A DNA stretch of 64,000 nucleotides from Candidatus Nanosynbacter sp. HMT-352 (GTDB lineage Bacteria > Patescibacteriota > Saccharimonadia > Saccharimonadales > Saccharimonadaceae): assembly GCF_022819385.1 (NCBI RefSeq), contig NZ_CP089290.1:124001-188000 (forward strand). Direction: 5' to 3'. The notes below the pieces were generated by a model. It ran no database searches. It was not told the origin of the DNA and saw only the letters and a program-made list of their open reading frames with translations. The translations under genes were made by a program, and so were the position numbers. Shown piece after piece: positions 4,056 through 50,988 of the stretch; the stretch's first letter is position 1; each line of letters starts with the position of its first letter.

Positions 4056-5321
4056 TTATTTATTTAACCTCGCTACTACATTAGTTGAATATCCTAGCTG
4101 CGTTTGAACGCGACCAATATTAGCATACCTAGGCGGATGATCTCCAAGTGATGCTTCTACCGCAACGTTACCATCTCCTTGATCTCCGATATATATCATT
4201 GTGTGCCCGTATGATCCTGCACCACTATGGACTAATATATCACCAGGCTGAAGGTCGCTAGGAGATTTAGTATTTATGATGGTATATTTTGGTGAATTCA
4301 TCACATAATTTCTCTGGATGCTGGTGCCTGCTGGTGGGTAGTCTGGGTCAGCTCCACTGGCGCGCATAACGGTAGCGACATATTTTCCACAGTCTGTCAT
4401 ATCGCCACCGGCTTCAGGGTTATATTTGGCACGAGCGTCTTCATATGCCTGCGAGGATGTACCTGGATTGTCTTTATTTATCAGCCCTTTTGCTGTTTCT
4501 ACTATACTTCCGGCATGTACGCCGCCACTATTTGCGCAATTTGACGCACTTGCGGAGCTGTTTTCACTACCACCTTCCCCTGAAGGTGCCGGATCTTTGT
4601 AGTTTGGGTGACCTGATTTTGTGAAGTCGCTGTTAAATAGTTCGTAGATATTTTTAAGATAGTTTTGAGTTTCCGTTGGAGCGTCAGTTAAAGGACTGGA
4701 GTCGGACGTGTGGTTTTGAATATTACCTCCGCCCCAGTTGTAAGCACCCGCTGCATATAGAATTGTCATAGGTTCCCGCTTCCATGGACTACCAATGTCG
4801 CCTAATGGAGTATTTTTATCAGTACTCAGAGACTTAACTAGGTGTGCGGCAGAAAAAACAGCATCATAAGGGTTCATAATGTCAGCCTTACCATCCCCGT
4901 CTCCGTCTTCGGCGTGACCACTCCACGTTCCCGGCATAAATTGCATAGGACCACTAGCGCCAACCGGTGAAGATGCCCATTGAGAGTTTAGTGGTTTCCA
5001 AGTGTTTCCCTGTTCTGTTAAGTATAATGCTGCCAGGAAGTTAGGATTAACGCCGTGCTTTTCTGCTGCTGCGGAAAAAATTTTTCCCCAGTCTGACGGA
5101 ATGTTTTTAGATAATTCAGCCGACACGGAAACTGCAGCATTAGCACAATCTGCCTCTCCACTTTTATACCAGAGAATATCATTTGTAACATATGAGTCTG
5201 GATATCCTGTAGCTATTGCTATTGGCTGTGTCGCAATAGAGACGGATGCAATGAAATATATGAGAATAGATAATTTCTTGCGCGTGAAATAGTTTACCTT
5301 GTATCTAATATTATGACTCAT
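4056..5321 (-). CDS. Secreted lytic transglycosylase fused to a CHAP/NlpC-like cysteine peptidase
   Basis: 421 residues predicted to cut peptidoglycan glycan strands and peptide cross-links outside the cell. After a signal or anchor segment (about 15-38), a transglycosylase domain shows LAALYLTEQGNTW (likely catalytic Glu), then GASGPMQFMPGTW and a DGDGDGKADIMNPYDAVFSAA block as in MltB/SLT_2-type enzymes. A Ser/Gly-rich linker leads to a peptidase domain with TDCGKYVATVM (catalytic Cys) and GHTMIYIGD (catalytic His). I chose the ATG at 5321, one base after the preceding stop codon, over an upstream extension lying inside the neighbouring gene. VirB1-like wall openers are common in type IV secretion loci. 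Confidence 0.88.
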   Translation of the reverse strand: MSHNIRYKVNYFTRKKLSILIYFIASVSIATQPIAIATGYPDSYVTNDILWYKSGEADCANAAVSVSAELSKNIPSDWGKIFSAAAEKHGVNPNFLAALYLTEQGNTWKPLNSQWASSPVGASGPMQFMPGTWSGHAEDGDGDGKADIMNPYDAVFSAAHLVKSLSTDKNTPLGDIGSPWKREPMTILYAAGAYNWGGGNIQNHTSDSSPLTDAPTETQNYLKNIYELFNSDFTKSGHPNYKDPAPSGEGGSENSSASASNCANSGGVHAGSIVETAKGLINKDNPGTSSQAYEDARAKYNPEAGGDMTDCGKYVATVMRASGADPDYPPAGTSIQRNYVMNSPKYTIINTKSPSDLQPGDILVHSGAGSYGHTMIYIGDQGDGNVAVEASLGDHPPRYANIGRVQTQLGYSTNVVARLNK

Positions 5322-5322
5322 T

Positions 5323-8300
5323 TTAAATCTTCCTTGCATACTCCCAGTGCCACGGTTCAGGCTTACTACCGCCAGGCTTTGCCCAAGGCGGATTAACGTA
5401 GCCGTATTTATGTGCGTTCGCCTCGAGCCATTTATATGCGGGAGAATCAAAACCTCCAACATTAATGTCCGCAGCAAGACCCCAACCGTGGTTTGATATA
5501 CATGGAGGGGCTGGAGCCGCTCTTGATCCTAGTTCTTTACTATATCTAATCTGTGTTGCGCAATCTCGATACGCCTCATTAATTGTTAAGTCTGACCTGT
5601 TATCTGCTTTGTACGCTTTATTCATTTCTTCCATAGCCGCTGCAGCTTTCTTATTCATTTTATTGCCTGACGAGAAAGATAGAGCTTGTAATTCTGAGTC
5701 TGGAATTTCGCCGTTGCTATGGCCTCCCCATCCGTCTTGTTGTGCTTCTTCTAATTGCGGCTCGCCAACTGCCTCGCCATTGTCTGGAGCTTTAGCTGTG
5801 GTTGAAGGAGTGTCTTCTTCGTCTTCGCCATTTATCGACTGTGCGATTTGGAAGTCAATTAGTAATACTGACATAGCGGAAAGCTTTCTGTCGTCGTATT
5901 GCTTAGCGGAATTTTCAGCTCCGAAAGATTCGTTAGTAACATCTTTACCTTCTGCGTCTTTATAAGTAGCACTTGTAGTAGTTGTCGCCGCTTGTTTTGA
6001 ATTTGTCGGTGCTACGCACCCGCCACTATTAAACCAGTAATTTCCGCTACTCGCGTCACTACAATCTTCAATGAAGTCATAAAGAGGCGTATCTTTAACT
6101 ATATATCCATTAGTCATGAGATCGGATATATCTGCGCCATCTGAAATATCCATATCTTTTTGTATCCATCCTTCATCTTCGGCAATCTGTATAGCTTCCT
6201 CTACCGACATATTATCCTGGCTTTTAGTTATACCTGTACATGGTAGTCCTGCCAGATTTACAGCTGGATCGTCTGGTGACCCACTCCCCATGTAAAAGTC
6301 CTTTGCGTATCCACAGTATTTGTCAGAATACATACCGCTTGCTGCTTTTGCAGTGGATGAATAAGACAGCGCTATAGAAGGTAGCCTGAGAATATTAGAC
6401 AGCATTGCTACTGGAGTTTTACTATAAGTTCCATTAGCTATCATCATATTACCCATATTATGGAATATGCTACCTAAGAATGTATATCTACTGGATGTAT
6501 CAAATGGGCTTAATGAAGCAATATCCATCTCTTTTTGGAATTCTTCGTTGGCTATTTGGATTCCATTGAATTCTGCCAATTGACTCATTTTAAGCCCTGG
6601 TAACATCTGCCCCATAGATCCGCTTGCAAAGAACGCTGCCGCTCCAACACCAAGTGCATCACCTAAATCCTTATATTGAGCATTATTTGGTACAAGAAAT
6701 TTCTTTGCTAGTTCTTCAAGAATTGTTTTAACTTGGTCGCCTACTGCTACCTCTGCTACCTTTGTAACTATTGCACCGAGAGTTTGGCTTCCTACCCAAG
6801 TTACCAATTTAGGCCATCCACCGGCGGCGGCGGTAGCTGCACCCTCTATGGCCATAAAAGTGTACATTGTAACTGGGCTAAGTATGAAATCACATGCTCC
6901 CTGAGTGGCGCCTTTAAGGTCATTGATTTTGCGAATTATAGGATTTGTAACTATTGAATACCCTGGCACATAATTTTTAGCAATTCCTGGCTTGTCATTA
7001 TTGACACCCATTGCTGCAAGGAGAAATGGAGAATCCAGAGCTGATCCTTCGGTGTTTTCAGAATCTTTCATTTTGCCCCTTTGAGTAAGCATGTCGCCTA
7101 TAGTTTCCATCGTTTCTTGAGAGAACTCACTGCCTGTAGATTCGGCAGCTGAAGCCTTCTGACCTAATAATGCTGCGGCAGGTTGACTATCTAGTCCAGA
7201 AGCTTTAGCCTGCGATCCAGGAGATAGTACTACATCCATAACCAATCCGAGCAGAGGGGCTAGCTGAACTGCGGTAACTCCTGCTGCGATAATATTTGGA
7301 ATTTTTACAGCTAAGCAATAACCAGCAGCAATGGTGTAGGCTAGCGCTCCTTTTTTTAATTTACCTCCCATCTTATTAATTCCGGTCTTGACGTTATTGA
7401 CGGCTGTGCTGTTATTAAATTTTGGCATCCCCTCTCGGAATTTTTTTATCCTCTCTGTTATTTTAAGTTTTTTATCGATTTTTGACATTGCACTATTTCT
7501 TTTAAGGCTGAACTTATTATAGAGCTTACTCATATGCTTTCCTGTCCAGGCACGGAAACGCATTTTCAGCAGACCGGTTCTGCCATAGACCTTACTGGCA
7601 ATTTTACGATTCTCTTTCTTTAGTAATTCGTCCTTTAATTTTGAGGCTTCAATGGGCTTTCCGCCGTTTATTCCTTCTATCTTCCAATGGGTTGGATTTT
7701 TTTCTGGGTAACCAGTTCTCTTTAGTTTCATTTCATTGCCATTGGCGTCAACCGGAGTTAGACCAGATTTCTTAAATTTATTGAGAGCTCTATTAGAGAG
7801 CCGCCCTGTTTTACAGCGTATCTTTTTGTTTTTACAGATTCCTGCGTCATCACTTGCTCCAATCATTCTATTCATGACTTTTTTCACGCGAGATTCTTTA
7901 ACAATTGTAGCGGAGTCATTTTTCCAGGTGAAATTCTCCATAATATTTTGTAACATTGTCGCTGGGCTAAGAAATATTCCCATAATTCCACCGCCCAGTC
8001 CTAATATTCCGGCAATAGCTGCAATTGGTCCGCGTTTTTTCAGTAAAGACTTGAATGTCACTGGACTTTTCTTTTTTCCCGCAGATGGCTGATAAAAACC
8101 GTTGTCTGGAACAGAAGACTCTTGGTTATTAACAGCAGCGCTGGCGGAATCGTTTTGATTAGGATTCAAATCCGAATCTTTATTATCAAACTGAGATTCA
8201 AGGTCATTTATGGCATCTTTTTCGCGATCACTTAACTCTGATCCACTGTCGTAGCCAGCCGAGATTTGATCAAACTTAGCCTGCTCAGCAGGATTTAATC

Positions 8301-40997: not shown

Positions 40998-41921
40998 CTA
41001 TTGTTTCAGGGATAATTCCGAATAAAAGTTGACTATAGTTATTGCGGCATCTACCGCCAGCCTTGCTTCGATAGCTGTCGGTTTTGGTATTTTGCTAGTA
41101 TGGGAATGTCCACTGCCTTTATTATTTCGTAGTTCCGCGATTCCGTTCACGATTTGAGATAGACCGCTGATAATAGCTCTAATTTCTTTTAACTCTGACC
41201 TATTTAATTTGAAGTAGTCTCTAGCTTTTGACATCAATTGTATTATTGATAATTTGTTAACATCCTCTTCTATCTTGCTGTCTAGTATACCCTGAAGACA
41301 GGTCTCAATATATTCTTTTGCCATTCCGATGGCTTTTACTGCATCTGTTTTTATCATAGCTAGCATTAGTTCCGATTGGTCCTTCTGATATTGACTTGAA
41401 AAGGTTACTTCCGTATTTTTGAGTCGTTTTTCCGTAACTACATCTTTTATCAAGAGAACTGGCTCATATTTTTCTATTTCCGGTAGTTCAAGCTCTTCTG
41501 GAATATAGCTACCACCGCTATCCCGTAGAAATTCAAGACATCGAGACATCCAGTTTGCATAATCTTTTCTTATTTCTACGCCTACGCCCACTTCATCCAG
41601 ATTCTTTTCCAAGGAAAAAACACTTTTAATAAGCAAAGATAATTCCCGACTTTGTGCGGCATTGAAATGACGATTTTTGCGTACTTTTTCATGCATAAAA
41701 TCGAGTAGTTTGTTTAGTCGATCGTGAATACACGCAAAAATTACTTTGCAATCATTCGGTGTGTCTTCGTATATTTCGATTATTGTAGAGCTTGGTTGAT
41801 ATGGCTCTATATTAAAACCACTATTGCCTAGATACAGATTTTCAAAAATTTCTGCTCTTTCCACTAGGCAATTACTTTGGTAGTAGTCATTTAAAATAAG
41901 CTTTCTTTTATCGACCGCCAT
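40998..41921 (-). CDS. Abortive infection C-terminus (Abi_C)-like protein with HEPN-type motif
   Basis: 307 residues. The C-terminal third resembles the Abi_C domain: AKEYIETCLQGILDSK, ARDYFKLN, then GIAELRNNKGSGHSHTSK and IEARLAVDAAITIVNFYSEL. The segment RNNKGSGH fits the HEPN RNase pattern R-x(4-6)-H (Arg265 and His272), suggesting RNA cleavage as the toxic step. The N-terminal two thirds are unrecognised. Start ATG 41921 has AAAAGG six bases upstream and overlaps the methyltransferase gene by 14 bases, so it belongs to the restriction cassette. Confidence 0.66.
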   Translation of the reverse strand: MAVDKRKLILNDYYQSNCLVERAEIFENLYLGNSGFNIEPYQPSSTIIEIYEDTPNDCKVIFACIHDRLNKLLDFMHEKVRKNRHFNAAQSRELSLLIKSVFSLEKNLDEVGVGVEIRKDYANWMSRCLEFLRDSGGSYIPEELELPEIEKYEPVLLIKDVVTEKRLKNTEVTFSSQYQKDQSELMLAMIKTDAVKAIGMAKEYIETCLQGILDSKIEEDVNKLSIIQLMSKARDYFKLNRSELKEIRAIISGLSQIVNGIAELRNNKGSGHSHTSKIPKPTAIEARLAVDAAITIVNFYSELSLKQ

Positions 41922-42687
41922 AGTTTGCCTTTTCAAAAACAAATAAATATTCGTGCGCCAACAGAAGAAAATTATATTTTATGCTATTCGTTTTCCAGTA
42001 ACCGGTTGCTCGGCAGTTGTGTTGTTCTTTCATGACGATTTCTTTTAGTGTAAAGCCGGCTTCTTCGAATACTCGCATTGTTTTAAAACTTAGCGGAATT
42101 ACGTGACCTTTTTGGCGCGTGTCGCCCATTAGAATTGCACAGAATTTACCAAACTTTAATACACGGTAGCTTTCTGATGCTACACTTTTCATTTGTTCTA
42201 GAAATTCATTAACTTTAAAGTTTGACAAATCTTGTGGAATATCTTGGTCTTTGCTGTAGTGGATGATATTTGCATATGGCGGATGTGTGCATATTAGGTC
42301 GATGCTTTCGTCAGGAAGTGGTTTTAAGTTTCGTGCATCACATTTCAACACCTTAACTATGCCGTCTGCGCCCTCATGTTTGAATTTAACTTTTTCACGA
42401 CATCTTTGAAGTGCGACTGGATTAACGTCCATTCCAATAATGTTACGGTTTAATAATTTTGCCTCCACTAATGTGGTGCCGCCACCGGCGAATTGGTCTA
42501 ATACCCAGTCATCCTCTTTTGAATAGCGAAGCAGAATATTTCTTGGAACGTACGGTGACCAATTTCCTCTCCATTTTGCATCGTGGGTAGCCCAGTTACC
42601 GCGATTAGGAAAACTCCAGACGCTGGTCATTTCTAGCTCAAAATCGTCTGGCTCCCATTTTTTTATCTCTTTCTTTTTGTCGGACAT
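41908..42687 (-). CDS. Beta-class DNA methyltransferase (second methylase of the DpnII-type cassette)
   Basis: 259 residues. SAM-binding motif VLDQFAGGGTTLVEA is at about 62-76 and the catalytic motif CTHPPYANII at about 130-140, the N4/N6 methylase order with motif IV as HPPY. The context after a DpnII-like nuclease matches DpnA, the second adenine methylase of the pneumococcal DpnII system (268 residues). GATC specificity is therefore inferred. It lies five bases after the nuclease gene. Confidence 0.82.
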   Translation of the reverse strand: MSDKKKEIKKWEPDDFELEMTSVWSFPNRGNWATHDAKWRGNWSPYVPRNILLRYSKEDDWVLDQFAGGGTTLVEAKLLNRNIIGMDVNPVALQRCREKVKFKHEGADGIVKVLKCDARNLKPLPDESIDLICTHPPYANIIHYSKDQDIPQDLSNFKVNEFLEQMKSVASESYRVLKFGKFCAILMGDTRQKGHVIPLSFKTMRVFEEAGFTLKEIVMKEQHNCRATGYWKTNSIKYNFLLLAHEYLFVFEKANYGGR

Positions 42688-42692
42688 ATAAA

Positions 42693-43547
42693 CTAAAATC
42701 TCTCTATCACACCGCTTTCAAGGTCGTTGATATTATAAATGTCATCCAATATATCAAATGTTTCTTTTAGGTTGTTTCTGGCACTATTCCAGCCTTTCCC
42801 ATCGGTAAACCATACGAATTTAAAGCCATCTATCATCTTAGCTTCAAGTGCAAGCGTTTTATAGCTACGAGCCGTCTCGTTAAGCTTGGAGCCACGACTA
42901 CCATAAAAATTAGTCTCGATTCCATAGATGCTATTATTGGTTTTAATTACAAAATCAAAACGTTTTTCGGTACTGCCTTGGTTGGAAATGGCAGAAAGAT
43001 CAATGCGCCACTTATTCTCAATTTTACTAAGGTTCATTTCCTTGAAATAGTCTTTGTCTTTGACGTAGCCAGCTTTCTGGATAAATCCTTCTACGAGATT
43101 TTCCATTAAATGACCGCCGCGGTTCTTGCGACCGTTGGAATCTAGTCCGGTTTCTATACCAGTAGCATAATCTACTAAGTTGTTGATAATATGATTCGTG
43201 ATAAGGTCGAATAGACCAGTCTTTCGCATAAAGATTTTATATTGTTCGGCGGAATAATTCATTTTACTGAAGTTATAGTTATATTCACCGTCTTCATCTA
43301 TAGCATAAATCTCGTTAGAACGAATCGCTAGCAAGATAGGAATACATTTTAATGTTTCTGGATATTTCGCGATAAGATTGTCGAACTCTTGCTCTATATT
43401 CTGTGAGCCGACAAGCGTGTTCAAGATATTTAGTTCTATCTTGATAGCATCTACGTTTTTATAAATCTTTGGAAAGTCGATATAGTAGCCATAGTCGGCA
43501 ATGCTTTCTCGAAATCCCCCTAGCCATTCATTAAAATTCCTTTTCAT
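42693..43547 (-). CDS. Type II restriction endonuclease, DpnII/MboI family
   Basis: 284 residues, close to DpnII (288). It would cleave unmethylated GATC. Family-specific stretches: RKTGLFDLITNHIINNLVDY, GLDSNGRKNRGGHLMENLVE and KRFDFVIKTNNSIYGIETNFYG. The last supplies the PD-(D/E)XK-type catalytic Asp (FDFVI) and Glu-Thr-Asn core and continues as SRGSKLNETARSYK. It is flanked by two methylases in the order of the dpn system. Recognition sequence is inferred from family. Confidence 0.9.
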   Translation of the reverse strand: MKRNFNEWLGGFRESIADYGYYIDFPKIYKNVDAIKIELNILNTLVGSQNIEQEFDNLIAKYPETLKCIPILLAIRSNEIYAIDEDGEYNYNFSKMNYSAEQYKIFMRKTGLFDLITNHIINNLVDYATGIETGLDSNGRKNRGGHLMENLVEGFIQKAGYVKDKDYFKEMNLSKIENKWRIDLSAISNQGSTEKRFDFVIKTNNSIYGIETNFYGSRGSKLNETARSYKTLALEAKMIDGFKFVWFTDGKGWNSARNNLKETFDILDDIYNINDLESGVIERF

Positions 43548-43560
43548 TTTGTTCCTCTCT

Positions 43561-44625
43561 TTAAAAGTTTGATATTAATAATTCGTTAATTTTTCCGCGT
43601 TTGTCGCTATTTCGATTTATCATACGCGTTGCGGATACGCGTCTTATATTCTGTTTTGCGTAAGCTTTATCGAAGAAGTTGTCATCTTTGTTAGTGTTCT
43701 TCGGATCGGAATTACTTGCGACTATCTTGGCGCCTTTTTTGTCTAGTTCTTGAATGAATTTCGCAAGTTCTAATTGGTTTTTATCGTCAAACATACCTTC
43801 TGTGTAGGAAGTGAAGCTTGCGGTCGGAGTTAGTGGACGATATGGCGGATCGAAATAGACAAACGTTTTGTTATCTATGAAGTCGCCGGATTTCTTGTAA
43901 TCACCGCATACTATATTTACGTTTTGTAGTTTTTTGGATACTATCTTTAAATTATGCTCGTTGCAAATAATCGGTTTTTTGTACGCACCCATCGGTACGT
44001 TATACTCACCCTTACGATTTACACGATATAAGCCGTTAAAGCAGGTTTTATTAAGGAATATCATTAAGGCAGCTAGCTCAATTCTGTTTTCTTTTTTGGA
44101 CTTAAGTTCGTTAAAACGTGCGCGCTTGGCTAGATAGACTTCTTTGCGATCATCGTTGTCTAATGCTAAATAATTATTCTCAAAGTGTCTTAAGACTCCT
44201 AATAGTGCGTCAATGTCGTCACGGATGACAGTATATGTGTTTATTAGTTCGGCGTTGATGTCGCTAATATAGACTTCCTGAAGTTTGAACTTATTCAAAA
44301 TATCAAAAAGAACCGCGCCACCACCAACAAACGGTTCTGCGTATTTTGTAATAGTAGTGTCTTTGGAGAATGGGTAATATTGTTCGATCTCCTTGAGTAA
44401 TTGTCCTTTACCTCCAGCCCATTTTAAGAAAGGTTTTGCTCTGGTGCTGGTTAATGACGCTTCTTTTGTCCGAGCGTCTAGTGGCTTAATGGCATTATGT
44501 GGAATTATCCATGTATTCCCGGCGAATACAGCACCAATAACTCGTCCTTCAGAACATAGAGCAGCTACTCTCCTTTGAGAAATAGCCCATTTTACAGCCG
44601 TTTCTTTTGCCGAAATATAATCCAT
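43561..44625 (-). CDS. Dam/DpnM-type adenine methyltransferase with N-terminal DNA-binding domain
   Basis: 354 residues. Class-alpha (D12) N6-adenine methylase expected to modify GATC. Motifs: AKPFLKWAGGKGQLL (SAM site), YAEPFVGGGAVLF and the catalytic DPPYRPL, with GLYRVNRKGEYNVPMG. About 60 extra N-terminal residues (YISAKETAVKWAISQRRVA, then AVFAGNTWIIPHNAIKP) look like an excisionase/MerR-type helix-turn-helix fused to the enzyme. It is the first gene of the cassette, so the fused domain may autoregulate it. Confidence 0.9.
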   Translation of the reverse strand: MDYISAKETAVKWAISQRRVAALCSEGRVIGAVFAGNTWIIPHNAIKPLDARTKEASLTSTRAKPFLKWAGGKGQLLKEIEQYYPFSKDTTITKYAEPFVGGGAVLFDILNKFKLQEVYISDINAELINTYTVIRDDIDALLGVLRHFENNYLALDNDDRKEVYLAKRARFNELKSKKENRIELAALMIFLNKTCFNGLYRVNRKGEYNVPMGAYKKPIICNEHNLKIVSKKLQNVNIVCGDYKKSGDFIDNKTFVYFDPPYRPLTPTASFTSYTEGMFDDKNQLELAKFIQELDKKGAKIVASNSDPKNTNKDDNFFDKAYAKQNIRRVSATRMINRNSDKRGKINELLISNF

Positions 44626-44795: not shown

Positions 44796-44825
44796 TTGCA
44801 AAACACTAGATATAGCGGCTATAGT
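44796..44825 (+). promoter_or_regulatory. nrdA promoter
   Basis: TTGCAA (44796-44801), an 18-nt spacer and TATAGT (44820-44825). The first NrdR box fills the spacer, so repressor binding would exclude RNA polymerase. Confidence 0.75.
44803..44818 (+). promoter_or_regulatory. NrdR box 1 of nrdA
   Basis: ACACTAGATATAGCGG matches the NrdR consensus core CwAtATaTwG (44806-44815). NrdR is the zinc and ATP-cone repressor of ribonucleotide reductase genes. Confidence 0.8.
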
Positions 44826-44834
44826 TATTATTGT

Positions 44835-44850
44835 ACGCTATATATATAGC
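44835..44850 (+). promoter_or_regulatory. NrdR box 2 of nrdA
   Basis: ACGCTATATATATAGC, core CTATATATAT at 44838-44847, centred 32 bp (three helical turns) after box 1. It matches all but the last core base and sits just after the predicted transcript start. Confidence 0.72.
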
Positions 44851-44947: not shown

Positions 44948-47350
44948 GTGAAAGAAATTAACGTAGTCAAACGCGACGGAACAAAAGAACCGTTTGATGC
45001 TAATAAAATTAATACGGCTATTTTAAAAGCGTGTGAAGGTTTGCCGGACCAAATTTCTAAGGTTGTTCAGGTGGCGACTGAATTACAATTGACATTATTT
45101 GATGGAATTACAACCGAGCAATTGGACGAGGCTGTCATTCAAACAGTTTTGCAAAACGTTAAGGACGACCCAGACTATGATAAAATCGCGGCACGATTGC
45201 TACTGAAAACTGTCTATAAGCAGATTTTGGGCGATTATGAGACGGCGGAAGAATTGAAAAAGCTTCATGCGCGCGAATTTCCGAAGTTCGTTAAGGCGGC
45301 GGTGAAAGAAGGGCTGTTGGATAAGCGCATGACTGACGGTCGATTTGATCTGAAAAAGCTGGCGGCAGAACTTGATCCAGCACGTGATGATTTGAGTAAA
45401 TATTTGGGTGTGGTGACCAATAAAAATCGCTACGCTCTTCGCAAGCAAAACGGCTCGCCAATTGAAACACCTCAGTTTACGCACATGCGAATTGCTATGG
45501 GGCTTAGTTATAACGAATCTGACCCAACGACTGCAGCGATTGAGTTTTATAATCACATGAGCAATTTGGAGTACGTTCCGGGTGGATCAACGCGAGTTAA
45601 TGCTGGCGGCTCGTTCCCGCAACTCAGTAACTGTTTCTTGCTTAATGTCGATGATGACATGGAGTCAATTGCTAAGGCTGTTCGCGACACAATGTGGATT
45701 GCTAAAGGTACGGGCGGAATTGGCATTGGTTTTACAAAGCTACGTGCAGCGGGCAGTCCAGTTAAAACCACCAACACTGAATCGACTGGCCCAATTCCAT
45801 TTATGAAGATGATTGATACGGCGCTTTTTGCGGTTTCTCGTAAGGGTAAAAAGGCTGGTGCAGCTGCAATTTACATGGAAAACTGGCACCTTAATTTTGA
45901 TCAATTTGTTGACCTTCGCCAAAACTCTGGTGACCCATATCTAAGAACCAGATTTGCGAATACTGCGGTATTTATCTCTGACGAATTTATGAAGCGAGTA
46001 GAAAAAGATCAAGATTGGTATTTGTTTGATCCAGCAGAAACTCCAGATTTGACAGAACTATACGGCGAAGAATTTTCGGCGCGATATAAAGAATATATCA
46101 AGATGGCGGAAGCTGGGAAGTTGCGAACATTTGATAAAGTTCCAGCTCGTCAGCAATTTAAGCGCATTTTGACTAGCCTACAAGCAACTTCTCATCCGTG
46201 GCTAACTTGGAAAGATACGATTAACGTGCGTGCGTTAAATAACAATACGGGTACAATTCACCTCAGTAACTTGTGTACGGAAATTACATTACCGCAGGAT
46301 AAAAATAATATTGCAACGTGTAACTTGGTGAGCATTAATTTGTCGGCATTTCTTAGTGAGGATAAAACTTGGGACTGGGATAGATTGAAAGAAGCGGCTC
46401 GTGCGGCAGTGCGACAATTGGACAATTTGTGCGACATCACTCAAACTCCAATTCCAGAAGCGATGTATTCGAATCAGCAAACTCGAGCAATTGGCCTCGG
46501 GATTATGGGTCTTTCTGACGTGTTGGAAAAATTGGGTTATTGCTACGAATCGAAAGAAGCGTACGATTTGATTGATCAATTGACAGAGTTTATTAGTTAT
46601 CACGCCATTGATCAATCGGCTGACCTGGCGAAGGAATTGGGCAGCTATCCAACATTCGCAGGCAGCGGTTGGAGTAAGGGAATTCTTCCAATTGATACGA
46701 TTGATAAGCTATCAAAAGATCGCGGCGTGAAGGTGAAAATAGACCAAAAGGCGCGACTAGACTGGGATGGTTTGCGAAAGAAAGTGAAGAAGGGAATGCG
46801 AAATGCGACTCTTATGGCAATTGCGCCGACGGCTAACATTGGTCACGTGGCGGGAACGACTCCTGGAATTGATCCGCAATTTGCGCAGATTTTCAGTCGC
46901 TCGACTTTGAACGGTAAGTTTTTGGAAGTGAACCATAATTTAGTTCGCGACTTGAAGAAGCTTGGTTTGTGGGACAATTTGAAGGATGAGATTTTTGCGG
47001 CTCAAGGCGATATTCAAGATATTGATGGCATTCCTCAGAATATCAAGGATGTTTATAAAACAAGTTTCCAGCTTAGTCCGTACGCATTTATTGAGGTGGC
47101 GGCTAGGGCTCAGAAGTGGGTCGATCAAGCGATTTCTCGAAATATGTATCTGGAGACGCGAGATATTGATGAATATGTGAAGATTTATTCGGAAGCGTGG
47201 AAGCGTGGCTTGAAGACGACATATTATCTGCATGTTAAGCCGCGTCATCAGTCGGAGCAGACAACAGTTTCAGTTGATAAAATTGCAGAACAAAAAGTCC
47301 GTACAAATAGTAAAGTGCGCGGATTTGGATTTGCGAAAATTAATAAATAA
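44948..47350 (+). CDS. nrdA: Class I ribonucleotide reductase catalytic subunit lacking the C-terminal Cys pair
   Basis: 800 residues. It reduces ribonucleoside diphosphates to deoxy forms using the NrdB cofactor. The N-terminal ATP-cone is present (NVVKRDGTKEPFDANKIN). Active-site cysteines are seen in LSNCFLLNVDD, HLSNLCTEITLP and IATCNLVSINLS, matching the C225, C439 and C462 positions of the E. coli enzyme. The protein ends with RTNSKVRGFGFAKINK and has no terminal C-x-x-C/CxxxxC pair, which in the family reduces the active site. Start is GTG 44948 with GGAGG upstream. Confidence 0.96.
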   Translation: MKEINVVKRDGTKEPFDANKINTAILKACEGLPDQISKVVQVATELQLTLFDGITTEQLDEAVIQTVLQNVKDDPDYDKIAARLLLKTVYKQILGDYETAEELKKLHAREFPKFVKAAVKEGLLDKRMTDGRFDLKKLAAELDPARDDLSKYLGVVTNKNRYALRKQNGSPIETPQFTHMRIAMGLSYNESDPTTAAIEFYNHMSNLEYVPGGSTRVNAGGSFPQLSNCFLLNVDDDMESIAKAVRDTMWIAKGTGGIGIGFTKLRAAGSPVKTTNTESTGPIPFMKMIDTALFAVSRKGKKAGAAAIYMENWHLNFDQFVDLRQNSGDPYLRTRFANTAVFISDEFMKRVEKDQDWYLFDPAETPDLTELYGEEFSARYKEYIKMAEAGKLRTFDKVPARQQFKRILTSLQATSHPWLTWKDTINVRALNNNTGTIHLSNLCTEITLPQDKNNIATCNLVSINLSAFLSEDKTWDWDRLKEAARAAVRQLDNLCDITQTPIPEAMYSNQQTRAIGLGIMGLSDVLEKLGYCYESKEAYDLIDQLTEFISYHAIDQSADLAKELGSYPTFAGSGWSKGILPIDTIDKLSKDRGVKVKIDQKARLDWDGLRKKVKKGMRNATLMAIAPTANIGHVAGTTPGIDPQFAQIFSRSTLNGKFLEVNHNLVRDLKKLGLWDNLKDEIFAAQGDIQDIDGIPQNIKDVYKTSFQLSPYAFIEVAARAQKWVDQAISRNMYLETRDIDEYVKIYSEAWKRGLKTTYYLHVKPRHQSEQTTVSVDKIAEQKVRTNSKVRGFGFAKINK

Positions 47351-47363
47351 GGAGGAAATTAAG

Positions 47364-48341
47364 ATGGGAATTTTAGGTTCAGGATTACGCGATGGATTAT
47401 CACTTCACCCAATTCGTTACCCTTGGGCGTATGATCTTTATAATCAAGCAGTGGCTAACACGTGGTTTCCAAACGAAGTCCAATTAGTTCAGGATTTGGC
47501 GGATTTTGAAAAATTGTCAGACGACGAAAAACACGCATTGAAAACAGTTATTAGCTATTTGAATCCAAACGAGTTATTGATCAATAAATCATTGGCGTTT
47601 GGCATTTATCCATATGTGAACGCGGCGGAAGCTCAACTATATTTGTCAAAACAGATGTGGGAAGAAGCCAACCACTTCATGACGTTTGAATACATTATTG
47701 AGACATTTCCATTTGATCGCGAGGAAATTTATGCTGCGGGATTTGGTAAAAAATCATTGGCGGATAAGGCTGACTTCCAGAATAAACATTTGGACGTGAT
47801 GCTTGATCCGAATTTGGATATTTATTCGCTGGAAGGCAAGAAAGATTTTGTTAGGTCTTTGGTAGCGTATAACATTGTGCTGGAGGGAATTTGGTTCTAT
47901 TCAGGCTTTATGGTTGGCATGAGTTTCCGTCAGCGTAATTTGTTGCGCAATGTTGGCTCACTACTAGACTGGATTACTCGCGATGAAAATCTTCATTTGA
48001 CGTTTGGTATCAATCTGCTTTTGACGATTTTGGACGAGAACCCAGAATTGCAAACGCAGGAATTTGCCGAGGAAATCCGTGGCTTGATTCTGCAGGCAGT
48101 GGAGCTTGAGAAGGCTTATAACAAAGATATGCTACCAAAGGGAATTTTGGGATTGAACGCTGATTATGTGAACCAATACGTTATGCATATGACCGACCGA
48201 CGCTTGCAGGAATTAGGTTTTGAGCCTGAATATAACGTGCCAAATCCAGCCAAATGGATGGCAGCCGCCAATGATACGCTGGAATTGGTGAATTTCTTTG
48301 AAAGCACAAACACTAGTTACGAAGTTAATACCACGAAGTAA
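47364..48341 (+). CDS. nrdB: Class Ic-type ribonucleotide reductase radical-cofactor subunit (Phe at radical position)
   Basis: 325-residue ferritin-like R2 protein holding the dimetal site. Ligand pattern: E70 in PNELLINKSL, E101 and H104 in EEANHFMTFEY, then EGIWFYSGFMVG and RDENLHLTFG. The residue four after H104, where classical R2 has the radical Tyr, is Phe108. This is the Chlamydia trachomatis-like class Ic arrangement, known to use an Mn/Fe cofactor. ATG 47364 has GGAGGAAATTAAG upstream, 13 bases after nrdA. Confidence 0.95.
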   Translation: MGILGSGLRDGLSLHPIRYPWAYDLYNQAVANTWFPNEVQLVQDLADFEKLSDDEKHALKTVISYLNPNELLINKSLAFGIYPYVNAAEAQLYLSKQMWEEANHFMTFEYIIETFPFDREEIYAAGFGKKSLADKADFQNKHLDVMLDPNLDIYSLEGKKDFVRSLVAYNIVLEGIWFYSGFMVGMSFRQRNLLRNVGSLLDWITRDENLHLTFGINLLLTILDENPELQTQEFAEEIRGLILQAVELEKAYNKDMLPKGILGLNADYVNQYVMHMTDRRLQELGFEPEYNVPNPAKWMAAANDTLELVNFFESTNTSYEVNTTK

Positions 48342-48355
48342 TGGGAGTTGATGAT

Positions 48356-48751
48356 ATGAACGAATTAGCGAAAGAAATATTAGATACAGTCGAAGTTGGT
48401 GCGTTGGCGACGGTGAATGTTGATAGAACTCCTTTGGTGACGCCGCTGCACTTTGCACGATTGGGTGATTCTATAATTTGGATATCAGAGCCGACTGCGC
48501 GCCATTCAGAAAATGCGTTTCGAAACGGTAAGGCGGAATTTGTGGTTTGGGATGATAAAAAGCGAGCAGTTTTCTTAAAAACTAACGTGACTGAACTTCC
48601 AGAATCTGAGAAAGAGGCGGCAATGGCAGCTTATAAAGAGAAGTTGGCTGATTTTATGCCACGCTGTGAAAATCCGCAAATATACGTTGCGCCAATTGGC
48701 GAACTTGATGAAAAAACTACAACGGGCAATTGGCTGCATTTTATTGCATAA
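48356..48751 (+). CDS. Pyridoxamine 5'-phosphate oxidase-like FMN-binding split-barrel protein
   Basis: 131 residues. It has the short split-barrel flavin-protein pattern: VGALATVNVDRTPLVTPLHF, GDSIIWISEPTARHSENAFRNG, and VVWDDKKRAVFLKT. Family members are oxidases or reductases of flavin or pyridoxal compounds. It directly follows nrdB, so it may supply a redox partner or a cofactor step, but this is speculative. Start at ATG 48356 follows GGGAG by eight bases; an ATG 15 bases upstream overlaps the nrdB stop. Confidence 0.8.
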   Translation: MNELAKEILDTVEVGALATVNVDRTPLVTPLHFARLGDSIIWISEPTARHSENAFRNGKAEFVVWDDKKRAVFLKTNVTELPESEKEAAMAAYKEKLADFMPRCENPQIYVAPIGELDEKTTTGNWLHFIA

Positions 48752-48772
48752 GCGCTATATCTAGCGTAAAAT
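48744..48772 (+). promoter_or_regulatory. Promoter of the CxxC small protein
   Basis: TTGCAT (48744-48749), a 17-nt spacer and TAAAAT (48767-48772). The spacer holds an NrdR box, as at nrdA. Confidence 0.75.
48752..48767 (+). promoter_or_regulatory. NrdR box 1 of the CxxC small protein
   Basis: GCGCTATATCTAGCGT, core CTATATCTAG (48755-48764), a close NrdR match lying between the -35 and -10 boxes. Confidence 0.8.
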
Positions 48773-48783
48773 TGGTTAAGTAA

Positions 48784-48799
48784 CTACTAAATATAGGGG
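48784..48799 (+). promoter_or_regulatory. NrdR box 2 of the CxxC small protein
   Basis: CTACTAAATATAGGGG, core CTAAATATAG (48787-48796), a full consensus core centred exactly 32 bp after box 1. It overlaps the GGGG ribosome site. Confidence 0.8.
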
Positions 48800-48808
48800 A
48801 AAATGAAA

Positions 48809-48982
48809 ATGAACGCAAATCAGATTATTACTGATGACATGACTTTGGAAGAGAAATTGAGTGCCATTGACGCAGCTCTTAAAGCAGCGCAGGAAGCGGC
48901 TGACGATCAAGCAAAGTCGAACGGTACTGTTGCAGCACCAGTTGACCCAGCAAGTTTGACTATTTGTGACGGTTGCGAATAG
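48809..48982 (+). CDS. Small CxxC-ending protein, proposed trans-acting redox tail of NrdA
   Basis: 57 residues. A helix (LEEKLSAIDAALKAAQEAA, about 13-31) is followed by a flexible Ala/Pro/Ser stretch (TVAAPVDPASLT) and ends CDGCE. The layout, helix then flexible arm then terminal vicinal cysteines, is that of the C-terminal tail of class I NrdA, which is missing from nrdA here. Its own promoter carries paired NrdR boxes with the same 32-bp spacing as nrdA. ATG 48809 has GGGG at good distance; ATG 48803 is an alternative. Function is inference; it could alternatively be a small thiol partner. Confidence 0.75.
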   Translation: MNANQIITDDMTLEEKLSAIDAALKAAQEAADDQAKSNGTVAAPVDPASLTICDGCE

Positions 48983-49044: not shown

Positions 49045-49950
49045 GTGAAAAAAATTGAGACTTTTTCAGGATCTGAGGCTATAAAAGAGATTAAACAGTA
49101 CGCTAAAAAGGGCGCATCTGAAGGTCTGTATGATCCGAGCCCAAGAAGACTGCGCGTTCCTCTTGAATTGGTTACTGATTTGCTTTTTGGTAATGTGGGG
49201 GATGTTGTCGTTGAGGGGGCTGATAATCTTTTTAAGGCAACTAAGAAAACCGAGGAAAACAAGGGTGTTATATTTGCTGCGAGTCACCTAACGGACGTTG
49301 ATGTTTCGACTGTTGCTAGCGTAGTTTCTGGGTTTAGACGTATAGGCATGACAGTAGCCTCCACTAATATGGATCTTTGGCATCAGAGGATACCATATGA
49401 ACTTGTTGGGATGGATAACTTTTTTCAGGTTCCGTATGGAAGAGATCCATCTGCGGAAAAAGGTGCCATTGATAATAAGTACGCGTTGCCGTTTAATGGT
49501 GACGATTACTTAGGTCTGCAAGAAAAAATAACAGATAGTGGACTTTCTGTTATTACTGCAGCACATAACCCGATGAGCAATATTGGGATAAAAAATGACG
49601 GTGAACTGCCAGAAAAGGCGGGTAAATTAGCTCCTCATCTAAGCCTGGCGACGGGTGCTACTATAATTCCTGTACTTATGCAGGTTGAGGGTCAGAAGAG
49701 AAATCCAGACCAATTTAATGACAATGCGATACATCTAAAACAGTATTTAGGTGAAAAAACTGTGCGACTGGTATTTGGTGAGATTATTAAGCCTAGTCCT
49801 GATGAAGTTGAAGCTTATGCCAATGTTTCGCATGAAGCGTCTTACTCAAAGGCGGCTCGTGAAGAGCAGTGTCGCATATTGGAAGCGTTTGGTGGGAAGG
49901 CGATATTAGGGTATATGCGTGATAAATATGATCCGGTATTGGCTGCGTAA
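49045..49950 (+). CDS. PlsC-like acyltransferase-fold protein, copy 1
   Basis: 301 residues. It has GVIFAASHLTDVDVSTVASV, where H-L-T-D-V-D fits the HX4D motif of glycerolipid acyltransferases, followed by VASTNMDLW, and a later GATIIPVLMQVEG, as in PlsC-type folds. No membrane helix is obvious. It is clearly paralogous to the next gene. Acyl transfer to a glycerophosphate or other lipid is inferred only from the motif. Start is GTG with TATAAT ten bases away. Confidence 0.65.
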   Translation: MKKIETFSGSEAIKEIKQYAKKGASEGLYDPSPRRLRVPLELVTDLLFGNVGDVVVEGADNLFKATKKTEENKGVIFAASHLTDVDVSTVASVVSGFRRIGMTVASTNMDLWHQRIPYELVGMDNFFQVPYGRDPSAEKGAIDNKYALPFNGDDYLGLQEKITDSGLSVITAAHNPMSNIGIKNDGELPEKAGKLAPHLSLATGATIIPVLMQVEGQKRNPDQFNDNAIHLKQYLGEKTVRLVFGEIIKPSPDEVEAYANVSHEASYSKAAREEQCRILEAFGGKAILGYMRDKYDPVLAA

Positions 49951-49968: not shown

Positions 49969-50988
49969 ATGACTGCAGGAATAGATAAGTTTACCCCAAC
50001 CCCAGAAGAACAAAAATTGTTCGATGAAGTCTTCCATCCAGGCATCGCTGAAGAGTCTGATATTGACGTAAAAGAAACTGAGCCACAGAGAGAGGGTTTT
50101 TCTCTGTCGGTTGCGCTTGGTTCTCTTAAGAAATGGGTGCGTGGTAGACGAGAAAAGCACAGCAAACCTTTTGGACTAACTAACAATTCGGCGGTAGAAA
50201 AACTTGAGGCAGCTGGAGAAGAATTGGGACTGCCAGAAACAGACGTTCGACTTTCCCCTGGACTTAAGCTGTTGATGGGCTTAATGCATGGCAAAAAGGA
50301 AGTTGAAATAATTGGCGAAGATATTTTAATTGAAGCCGCCAAAAAGTCCAAAGAAGAAGGTAGGGGAAGTGTTATAGCGCCAACACATTTCAATGGAGAG
50401 GATGTTCCTACGGCTAGTTATTTGGCGTCTTTGTTGAACAAAATTAATATTGGCATAGCGTCGACTAATAGAGATTGGATTAAGAAGGGCGTTGGCGGAA
50501 TCAACCTAGAGGCTATACAATATCTTGCGTTTGGCGCTAAAAACTTTTTTGGTGTGCCATATGAATGGGTAGATAAAAAGAGTAAAAAACCGGTTCACTT
50601 TTCAACAGACCATTACGAAGAAGCGGTTAAATTTGTTGAGGATGGTGGATCTTTGGTTTTGGCTGGATATTCAGCGGATGACTCAGTAGGTTCAAAGCCT
50701 CGCAGTGAAATGGGATCTGCGGCGATTCATACGGCATTAAAATCTGGTGCAGAATTGATATTTGTTTACGTATCGTCAGAGGATAAGAAACTTACCATCA
50801 GAGTTATGGAGGATGAGGATGGTATGTTTGCGGCGTTTAGTAATTCATATAGAAAGGCGCTAGAGATGAAGGATTCTGATGCATCCGAGCGTTTATTGTC
50901 GTCATGCAAAGAGTACTTAAAAGACAGCGAAATAGGTAGGGTTATAGCGGAAGAATATAGGCGTCGATCAGACAAAAATAAAGCCTAG
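49969..50988 (+). CDS. PlsC-like acyltransferase-fold protein, copy 2
   Basis: 339 residues, about 40 longer than copy 1 because of an acidic N-terminal extension. Core region SVIAPTHFNGEDVPTASYLA carries HX4D (H-F-N-G-E-D) and continues IGIASTNRDWI, aligned to copy 1. Later KSGAELIFVYVSSED parallels copy 1. It lies 18 bases after copy 1 with a GGAGAG ribosome site, so the pair is one operon. They might act as a heterodimer or on different substrates (inference). Confidence 0.65.
   Translation: MTAGIDKFTPTPEEQKLFDEVFHPGIAEESDIDVKETEPQREGFSLSVALGSLKKWVRGRREKHSKPFGLTNNSAVEKLEAAGEELGLPETDVRLSPGLKLLMGLMHGKKEVEIIGEDILIEAAKKSKEEGRGSVIAPTHFNGEDVPTASYLASLLNKINIGIASTNRDWIKKGVGGINLEAIQYLAFGAKNFFGVPYEWVDKKSKKPVHFSTDHYEEAVKFVEDGGSLVLAGYSADDSVGSKPRSEMGSAAIHTALKSGAELIFVYVSSEDKKLTIRVMEDEDGMFAAFSNSYRKALEMKDSDASERLLSSCKEYLKDSEIGRVIAEEYRRRSDKNKA

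Follow-up and report, generated by a model that had tools for sequence, protein, structure and literature searches.

According to the introduction of PMC6187632, all class I ribonucleotide reductases (RNR) carry a redox cysteine pair in the large subunit NrdA. The available text of PMC9669993 describes class I enzymes as having almost exclusively a C-terminal double-cysteine motif and regards split domains as peculiar to class II, while 1737 of the 2022 class I sequences counted in the accessible part of PMC9531940 have a CXXC motif, thus other tail-less lineages may exist. In the split class II reductase NrdJab, the catalytic chain NrdJa is devoid of the C-terminal redox cysteines (available sections of PMC4520616 and PMC9669993). 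Full activity depends on the second chain, which provides the dithiol exchange in trans; in Pseudomonas aeruginosa, NrdJb mediates this exchange for NrdJa and is needed in vivo (PMC4520616, same sections). The nrdA of phage Aeh1 is also in two pieces, separated by an intein (PMC3653736, in the part of the article at hand). Literature searches of open-licence PMC text for a class I tail acting in trans, for RNR genes of Saccharibacteria or Patescibacteria and for RNR genes of Saccharibacteria phages brought up nothing on such a tail in the titles and abstract beginnings listed, and no nrd gene is mentioned in the main text of a Tn-seq study of S. epibionticum (PMC10633639). Here we describe a gene of 57 codons that very probably encodes the C-terminal redox tail of a class I RNR as a separate protein, which would reduce NrdA in trans. 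The detached tail looks like the class I counterpart of split NrdJab, with a catalytic chain lacking its C-terminal cysteines and a second chain proposed to supply the dithiol exchange. Unlike the adenosylcobalamin-dependent class II NrdJab, the system belongs to class I, apparently has at least three origins and has copies on phage contigs. In contrast to Aeh1, only the flexible tail appears to be detached, and neither an intein nor an intron was seen at the NrdA and tail ends that were read.

The window, i.e. the whole analysed stretch of 64,000 nucleotides, carries nrdA at 44948-47350 on the forward strand. The gene has a GTG start and codes for a class I large subunit of 800 aa with ATP-cone and barrel (PF02867 at 1.8e-168, PF03477, PF00317). 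The RNR barrel, all-alpha and ATP-cone domains were over cut-off, and NF005101 (PRK06539) matched with 1321 bits over profile positions 3-788 of 822. Cysteines are present only at positions 29, 229, 443, 458, 495 and 532, and the protein ends in ...VRGFGFAKINK. As the original prediction had stated, a C-terminal redox pair is absent from this NrdA, its last cysteine being C532 of 800 aa. C229, C443 and C458 align with C218, C429 and C444 of human R1 (positions counted off the alignment), of which we take C218/C444 to be the redox pair and C429 the radical (thiyl) site. By alignment, all three active-site cysteines were kept in 36 of 36 NrdAs compared, therefore NrdA should still form the active-site disulfide at each turnover. 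The class II model TIGR02504 (NrdJ) reached 399.2 bits, under its cut-off of 399.95, and nrdB is adjacent; judged by sequence, the window NrdA is a class I chain and not an adenosylcobalamin-dependent class II chain. The small subunit gene nrdB (47364-48341, forward strand, 325 aa; PF00268 at 1.6e-72, NF007186 over cut-off) was near nrdA in 75 of 76 loci of the window's family, the exception, G437, running off its contig. Between nrdB and the tail gene, the window lineage has a forward-strand gene for a PNPOx-like flavoprotein (48356-48751; PF01243 at 2.4e-08), which as far as seen stands outside the mechanism. On the other side of nrdA, a reverse-strand cluster at 41908-44625 comprises a D12-class adenine methyltransferase (43561-44625), a methyltransferase-like ORF and a 284-aa ORF that presumably resembles a DpnII-type nuclease, together likely a restriction-modification system.

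The putative tail gene is located at 48809-48982 on the forward strand. Its start lies 1,458 bp past the nrdA stop, in agreement with the separate 57-residue ORF predicted about 1.46 kb downstream; an alternative in-frame ATG upstream at 48803 would yield a 59-aa version. The product, MNANQIITDDMTLEEKLSAIDAALKAAQEAADDQAKSNGTVAAPVDPASLTICDGCE in full (MNANQ...LTICDGCE), consists of an N-terminal helix, an Ala/Gly/Pro linker and the C-terminal PVDPASLTICDGCE, and its only two cysteines form the proposed redox pair C53-D-G-C56 (48965-48976, forward strand). AlphaFold2 predicted a single long helix at residues 13-38, short helices at 3-6 and 47-51 and a mostly coiled C-terminus, at a modest confidence (mean pLDDT 68, lowest for the last residues); a helix followed by a flexible C-terminal part had been expected from reading the ORF. 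The Pfam search returned no match over cut-off for the peptide, and hints to RanBP1 and homocysteine methyltransferase in Pfam/NCBIfam were rejected (E about 0.05, under cut-off). A chance ORF was rejected as well, since in a protein search with the peptide 557 of 558 candidates were homologues at E<=10, the best with an E of 1.9e-27; wherever these homologues carry a name, it is 'hypothetical protein'. The terminal C-x-x-C of the original reading proved to be a lasting feature: C-x-x-C plus one residue formed the end of 117 among the best 120 of the 557 homologues (one exception had lost a cysteine, two read past the end) and of the tail in 64 of 64 genome loci. Both cysteines were present in 47 of 47 rows of an alignment built from the window, 27 homologues and 19 hand-picked loci, with the divergent G404, G405, L175 and L176 types left out. 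Invariant in these rows were M11, L13, K16, L17, I20, D21, P44, D46, P47, C53, G55 and C56, and in most of the window's family the helix came close to the CxxC in conservation.

Homologous tails were sought in a phylum sample of 379 genomes, of which 40 contained NrdA at E<=1e-100, 14 of them in the window's family. Of the remaining 26 NrdAs, from outside the family, the five closest were 54-61% identical to the window NrdA and all had a fused tail, with the C-terminal ends CPVDPQLRLQCDSCQ, CPIDPQERLQCDSCQ, CPVDPQERAQCDSCQ, CPVDPQERLNCESCQ and CPIDPQERLTCDSCQ and the consensus CP[VI]DPQ...C[DE]SCQ. The typical end of the detached peptide, AP[VLI]DP-x5-C[DE]GC[QE], has the same spacing, which leaves PxDP-x5-C[DE]xC[QE] as the common pattern. 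Compared with these five tails after exclusion of both cysteines, the window peptide scored above 20,000 of 20,000 shuffles (z 4.9). Values for other detached peptides were z 5.2 (G397), 6.9 (G430) and 6.6 (G229); of the divergent family tails, G404 reached z 4.7, with 1 of 20,000 shuffles as high, and G405, the weakest match, z 3.7, with 11 of 20,000. These comparisons are direct evidence for a homology of the peptide's C-terminus to fused NrdA tails that extends beyond the cysteines. With an ordinary class I tail the peptide thus has the terminal motif in common and, in sister Patescibacteria, similar flanking residues at equal spacing; it differs in being a separate gene with a helix of its own and, when moved, usually an NrdR-box promoter of its own. 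The fused tails showed no such helix, so that it may serve a different function. In the divergent tails of G404 and G405, as in those detached in G125 and G229, the CxxC end is kept and the helix motif is not, thus the CxxC end has to be seen as the common part.

The tail peptide was detected in 14 of the 379 phylum genomes, all of them in the window's family. Of 151 family genomes, 73 had NrdA and peptide, one the peptide only, five NrdA only and 72 neither (Fisher p about 1e-35); for this table, the peptide search matched 74 genomes, and window-type NrdA, defined by rows at >=59% identity with rows at 24-38% excluded, was present in 78. Three of the five genomes with NrdA only contained a divergent tail ORF below the reach of the sequence search, located between nrdA and nrdB in G404 and G441 (...LVDPxDDLACEGCQ) and right behind nrdB in G405 (...ITDPADAFMCDGCQ), thus a genuine tail loss was rejected for them. 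In the other two, G422 (87% complete) and G444 (81%), NrdA was represented by no more than an N-terminal piece at the edge of a contig. A tail-pattern search revealed no tail gene in either genome: G444 had no match, and the single match in G422 was rejected as a 15-codon open frame. In G389 (67% complete), the sole genome with the peptide and without NrdA found, a prophage copy was discounted, as the contig seems to carry ribosomal-protein genes, judged from ORF starts. With G422 and G444 excluded from the count, 76 NrdA C-termini of the family were readable. None had a cysteine pair after the KTTYY motif, one had a single cysteine inside this motif, and all 76 genomes encode a separate tail. 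The ORF looked for beside nrdAB in relatives hence accompanies the tail-less NrdA throughout the readable family genomes, and a tail-less NrdA without such an ORF was encountered neither there nor in G125 and G229 outside the family. Co-occurrence and homology to fused tails together support the split reductase with a trans-acting tail that had originally been suggested.

Tail and NrdA C-terminus were on one contig in 72 of the 73 genomes with both matches (in G437, contig edges separate them). In all 72, the tail was downstream of nrdA on the same strand, 50 times within 300 bp (18-276 bp) and 22 times at 1.05-2.73 kb. The promoter of the window's tail gene, which was not listed by a promoter scan of the window, comprises by direct reading a weak putative -35 TTGCAT (48744-48749) and, 17 bp from it, a putative -10 TAAAAT (48767-48772). 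A first candidate NrdR box, GCGCTATATCTAGCGT (48752-48767, by consensus score), occupies the -35/-10 spacer, and a second, CTACTAAATATAGGGG (48784-48799), follows 32 bp after it and overlaps the ribosome-binding region; all four elements are on the forward strand, and the two boxes were found as first described. The nrdA promoter has boxes at the same distance of 32 bp, ACACTAGATATAGCGG (44803-44818) and ACGCTATATATATAGC (44835-44850), also on the forward strand. By a simple hand-made score on an NrdR consensus, these two promoters tied for the best pair at 30-33 bp in the window (33/40 each, the next 30). According to the available text of PMC12051234, binding measurements on NrdR agree with two boxes spaced by roughly three turns of the helix. 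Both promoters, with paired boxes about three helix turns apart, are putative members of an NrdR regulon. The claim that they are identical in design was borne out for the box spacing and the placement relative to -35 and -10, but not for the second box, which in the nrdA promoter lies about 100 bp upstream of the GTG and not at the ribosome site; the two promoters are thus not identical. A perfect TTGACA-18-TATAAT precedes the next gene after the tail gene (49045-49950), hence the tail gene may be transcribed as a unit of its own. This gene (301 aa) and the consecutive ORF at 49969-50988 (339 aa) had no Pfam match at E<=0.1; HxxxxD-like motifs in them recall acyltransferases.

A set of 64 tail loci was taken from named genome contigs, labelled Saccharibacteria, Saccharimonadia, TM7, Patescibacteria or 'bacterium' and once Chloroflexi. 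The tail was less than 300 bp behind nrdA in 43 of them and behind nrdB in 16; neither gene was in view in five. An NrdR pair above the 95th percentile of the locus itself preceded the tail in 14 of the 16 loci behind nrdB, in 1 of the 43 behind nrdA and in 1 of the remaining 5, several of these loci being close relatives. Before nrdA itself, such a pair was observed in 38 of 42 and 14 of 14 loci; here the scored stretch exceeded the background ones by 60 bp. The boxes thus go with tail genes that no longer sit directly behind nrdA. NrdR itself was over cut-off in 20 of 20 genomes tested. Comparison of the genomes in this way presents a real gene that is homologous to fused tails at its C-terminus, occurs with tail-less NrdA and is either linked to it or marked by putative NrdR boxes.

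Outside the family, C-termini were read for 25 of the 26 NrdAs (not for G170): 23 had a fused tail, and two, G125 and G229, were tail-less. The NrdA of G125 (family f10) stops at ...INKKFAAPTA, whereas four f10 relatives end in GDPNLNICESCQ. Its detached tail is an ORF of uncertain start that begins just behind the nrdB stop and ends in GDPNLNVCESCQ; no clear NrdR pair was found in G125. G229 belongs to the same class as the window's nearest genome, its NrdA ends in ...APVPKQQSSKSKK, and a tail ORF was absent from the nrdA strand within 5 kb downstream. Screened blindly for C-[DE]-x-C-[QE]-stop, the G229 genome yielded a single match (none in the control), the end of a 36-aa ORF, MPDKKAQKNSIADSDWDKPMVCPIDPEELKECEACQ, 66 kb away and with an AGGAGGG ribosome site. 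Genuine tail loss was therefore rejected for G229, since this pattern match located its detached tail far from nrdA. The best NrdR pair of the 3-kb tail locus of G229 lies upstream of the tail (31.5), that of the 14-kb nrdA locus at nrdA (36.5). The G229 tail resembles sister-clade tails more than the fused tail of G319, the closest NrdA relative, thus its history may include a transfer. In a maximum-likelihood NrdA tree of 36 rows with the C-termini cut off (12 family rows including the window; G298 with an in-frame TGA and the partial G170 excluded), the tail-less label changed three times; the starred branches force three changes, and 200 bootstrap trees gave a 5-95% range of 3-3. By this comparison of NrdA sequences, the tail was detached at least three times. 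The fused-tail NrdA of G298 (L079) may owe its in-frame TGA to a sequencing error, a frame break or recoding. In G501 (L138), where the usual tail gene lies between nrdA and nrdB, a further tail-like ORF of shorter length follows nrdB (5182-5380, ...MEQTLTGGDMTLEQKLQAITEALRRLDGDNTNDLICEGCE) and is possibly a paralogue.

We infer the mechanism, from docking and entry into the active site to thiol exchange and the reductant involved, as follows. Reduction of a ribonucleotide would leave NrdA with a disulfide between the active-site residues C229 and C458. The flexible C-terminus of the peptide would enter the active site, and the C53/C56 dithiol would reduce this disulfide; glutaredoxin or thioredoxin would then reduce the peptide. 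Through its conserved N-terminal helix (MTLEEKLxAID), the peptide probably binds to the holoenzyme, which would keep the tail close. Synthesis of the tail may be kept in step with NrdA by a position directly behind nrdA or, after a move, by its own NrdR boxes. Glutaredoxin (PF00462) was found in 19 of 20 near-complete family genomes and thioredoxin (PF00085) in 9 of 20, which suggests glutaredoxin as the usual RNR reductant; G425, the only one of the 20 without a glutaredoxin found, has thioredoxin.

Small thiol proteins that are co-regulated with RNR exist, and the peptide may accordingly be an RNR accessory factor, i.e. an activator, a factor for NrdB assembly or for metal or cofactor, or an inhibitor, rather than the reductant of the active site. 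The helix, conserved almost to the degree of the CxxC, points in the same direction. We regard such a role as improbable, since the likeness of the peptide's C-terminus to fused tails goes beyond the cysteines, the peptide is present where NrdA has lost its own cysteine pair, and the part kept in the tails of G404/G405, G125 and G229 is the CxxC end and not the helix motif. Even less probable is a direct reduction of tail-less NrdA by glutaredoxin, thioredoxin or small thiols, which would make the peptide a dispensable helper or a relic. A tail can be bypassed: DTT does so for E. coli NrdA, L. leichmannii NrdJ and NrdJa, but NrdJb is required in vivo despite this bypass (both in the available sections of PMC4520616). 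A dispensable peptide is also at odds with its retention in reduced genomes, in every one of the readable cases, and with two cysteines that did not vary in any aligned sequence. The window read alone would allow a small CxxC protein that lies near nrdAB by chance and is unrelated to RNR; co-occurrence, linkage, homology and the common NrdR boxes refute this, and we give it next to no weight. A detached redox tail acting on NrdA in trans is the reading we prefer.

As a small CxxC protein proposed to serve RNR, the tail is comparable to NrdH-redoxin, glutaredoxin and thioredoxin, and phages may likewise carry it as their only RNR gene. Unlike these proteins, which have a fold with an N-terminal CxxC, the tail has 57 aa with the CxxC at the very C-terminus, and Pfam/NCBIfam searches and AlphaFold2 gave no sign of a thioredoxin fold in it. 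A viral scan with the aligned peptide revealed a tail gene on 20 IMG/VR contigs of 5-86 kb, several of them near relatives, that encode 18 distinct tails of 47-58 residues, all ending in CxxC plus one residue. NrdA (PF02867) and NrdB (PF00268) were each detected on 0 of these 20 contigs, all of which may be fragments. Proteins sampled from 7 of the 20 matched terminase, portal, major head, tape measure and minor tail families; further matches in these seven were primase, RecT, endolysin, RNA ligase and polynucleotide kinase, and some proteins had no match. The INPHARED phage collection contained no match to the tail peptide. Among the 64 tail loci, three that are away from nrdAB look phage-like: L181/L150 (terminase, portal, head), L226 (amidase, groEL) and L238 (Erf, endolysin). 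Near the tail gene of the phage-like contig L226, the ORF at 4246-5916 matches the PHROG chaperonin family (groEL-like). An ORF near the tail gene of L001/L162, also phage-like, is presumably a GroEL (L001:10627-12216). An NrdR pair above the 95th percentile was observed for 2 of the 20 viral tails and 0 of the 3 phage-like loci, close to chance. Two Saccharibacteria MAGs (SW22112_bin_18, UBA6039) hold an operon copy and a phage-like copy, which is the evidence for Saccharibacteria as hosts. We lean, with considerable reservation, towards the view that phages of Saccharibacteria carry the tail alone and that infection floods the tail-less RNR of the host with it, raising the dNTP supply outside NrdR control.

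Across one family of Saccharibacteria, tiny parasitic bacteria for which RNR is an essential enzyme of DNA synthesis, the 76 class I NrdAs with a readable C-terminus appear to break the rule of a redox pair within NrdA, as do two further lineages. Their detached tails span about 36-67 residues, given the uncertain start in G125. The tail gene marks an annotation gap: it has no Pfam match over cut-off, is called a hypothetical protein and is carried on phage contigs. A tail encoded apart becomes separately titratable, mutable and replaceable, thus the re-reduction of the active site, a step studied for a long time, can be dosed in trans. If the role proposed for infection is true, the phage tail of 47-58 residues would rank with the smallest auxiliary metabolic genes, and by the split the tail would have become a rate-setting, exchangeable part of RNR.
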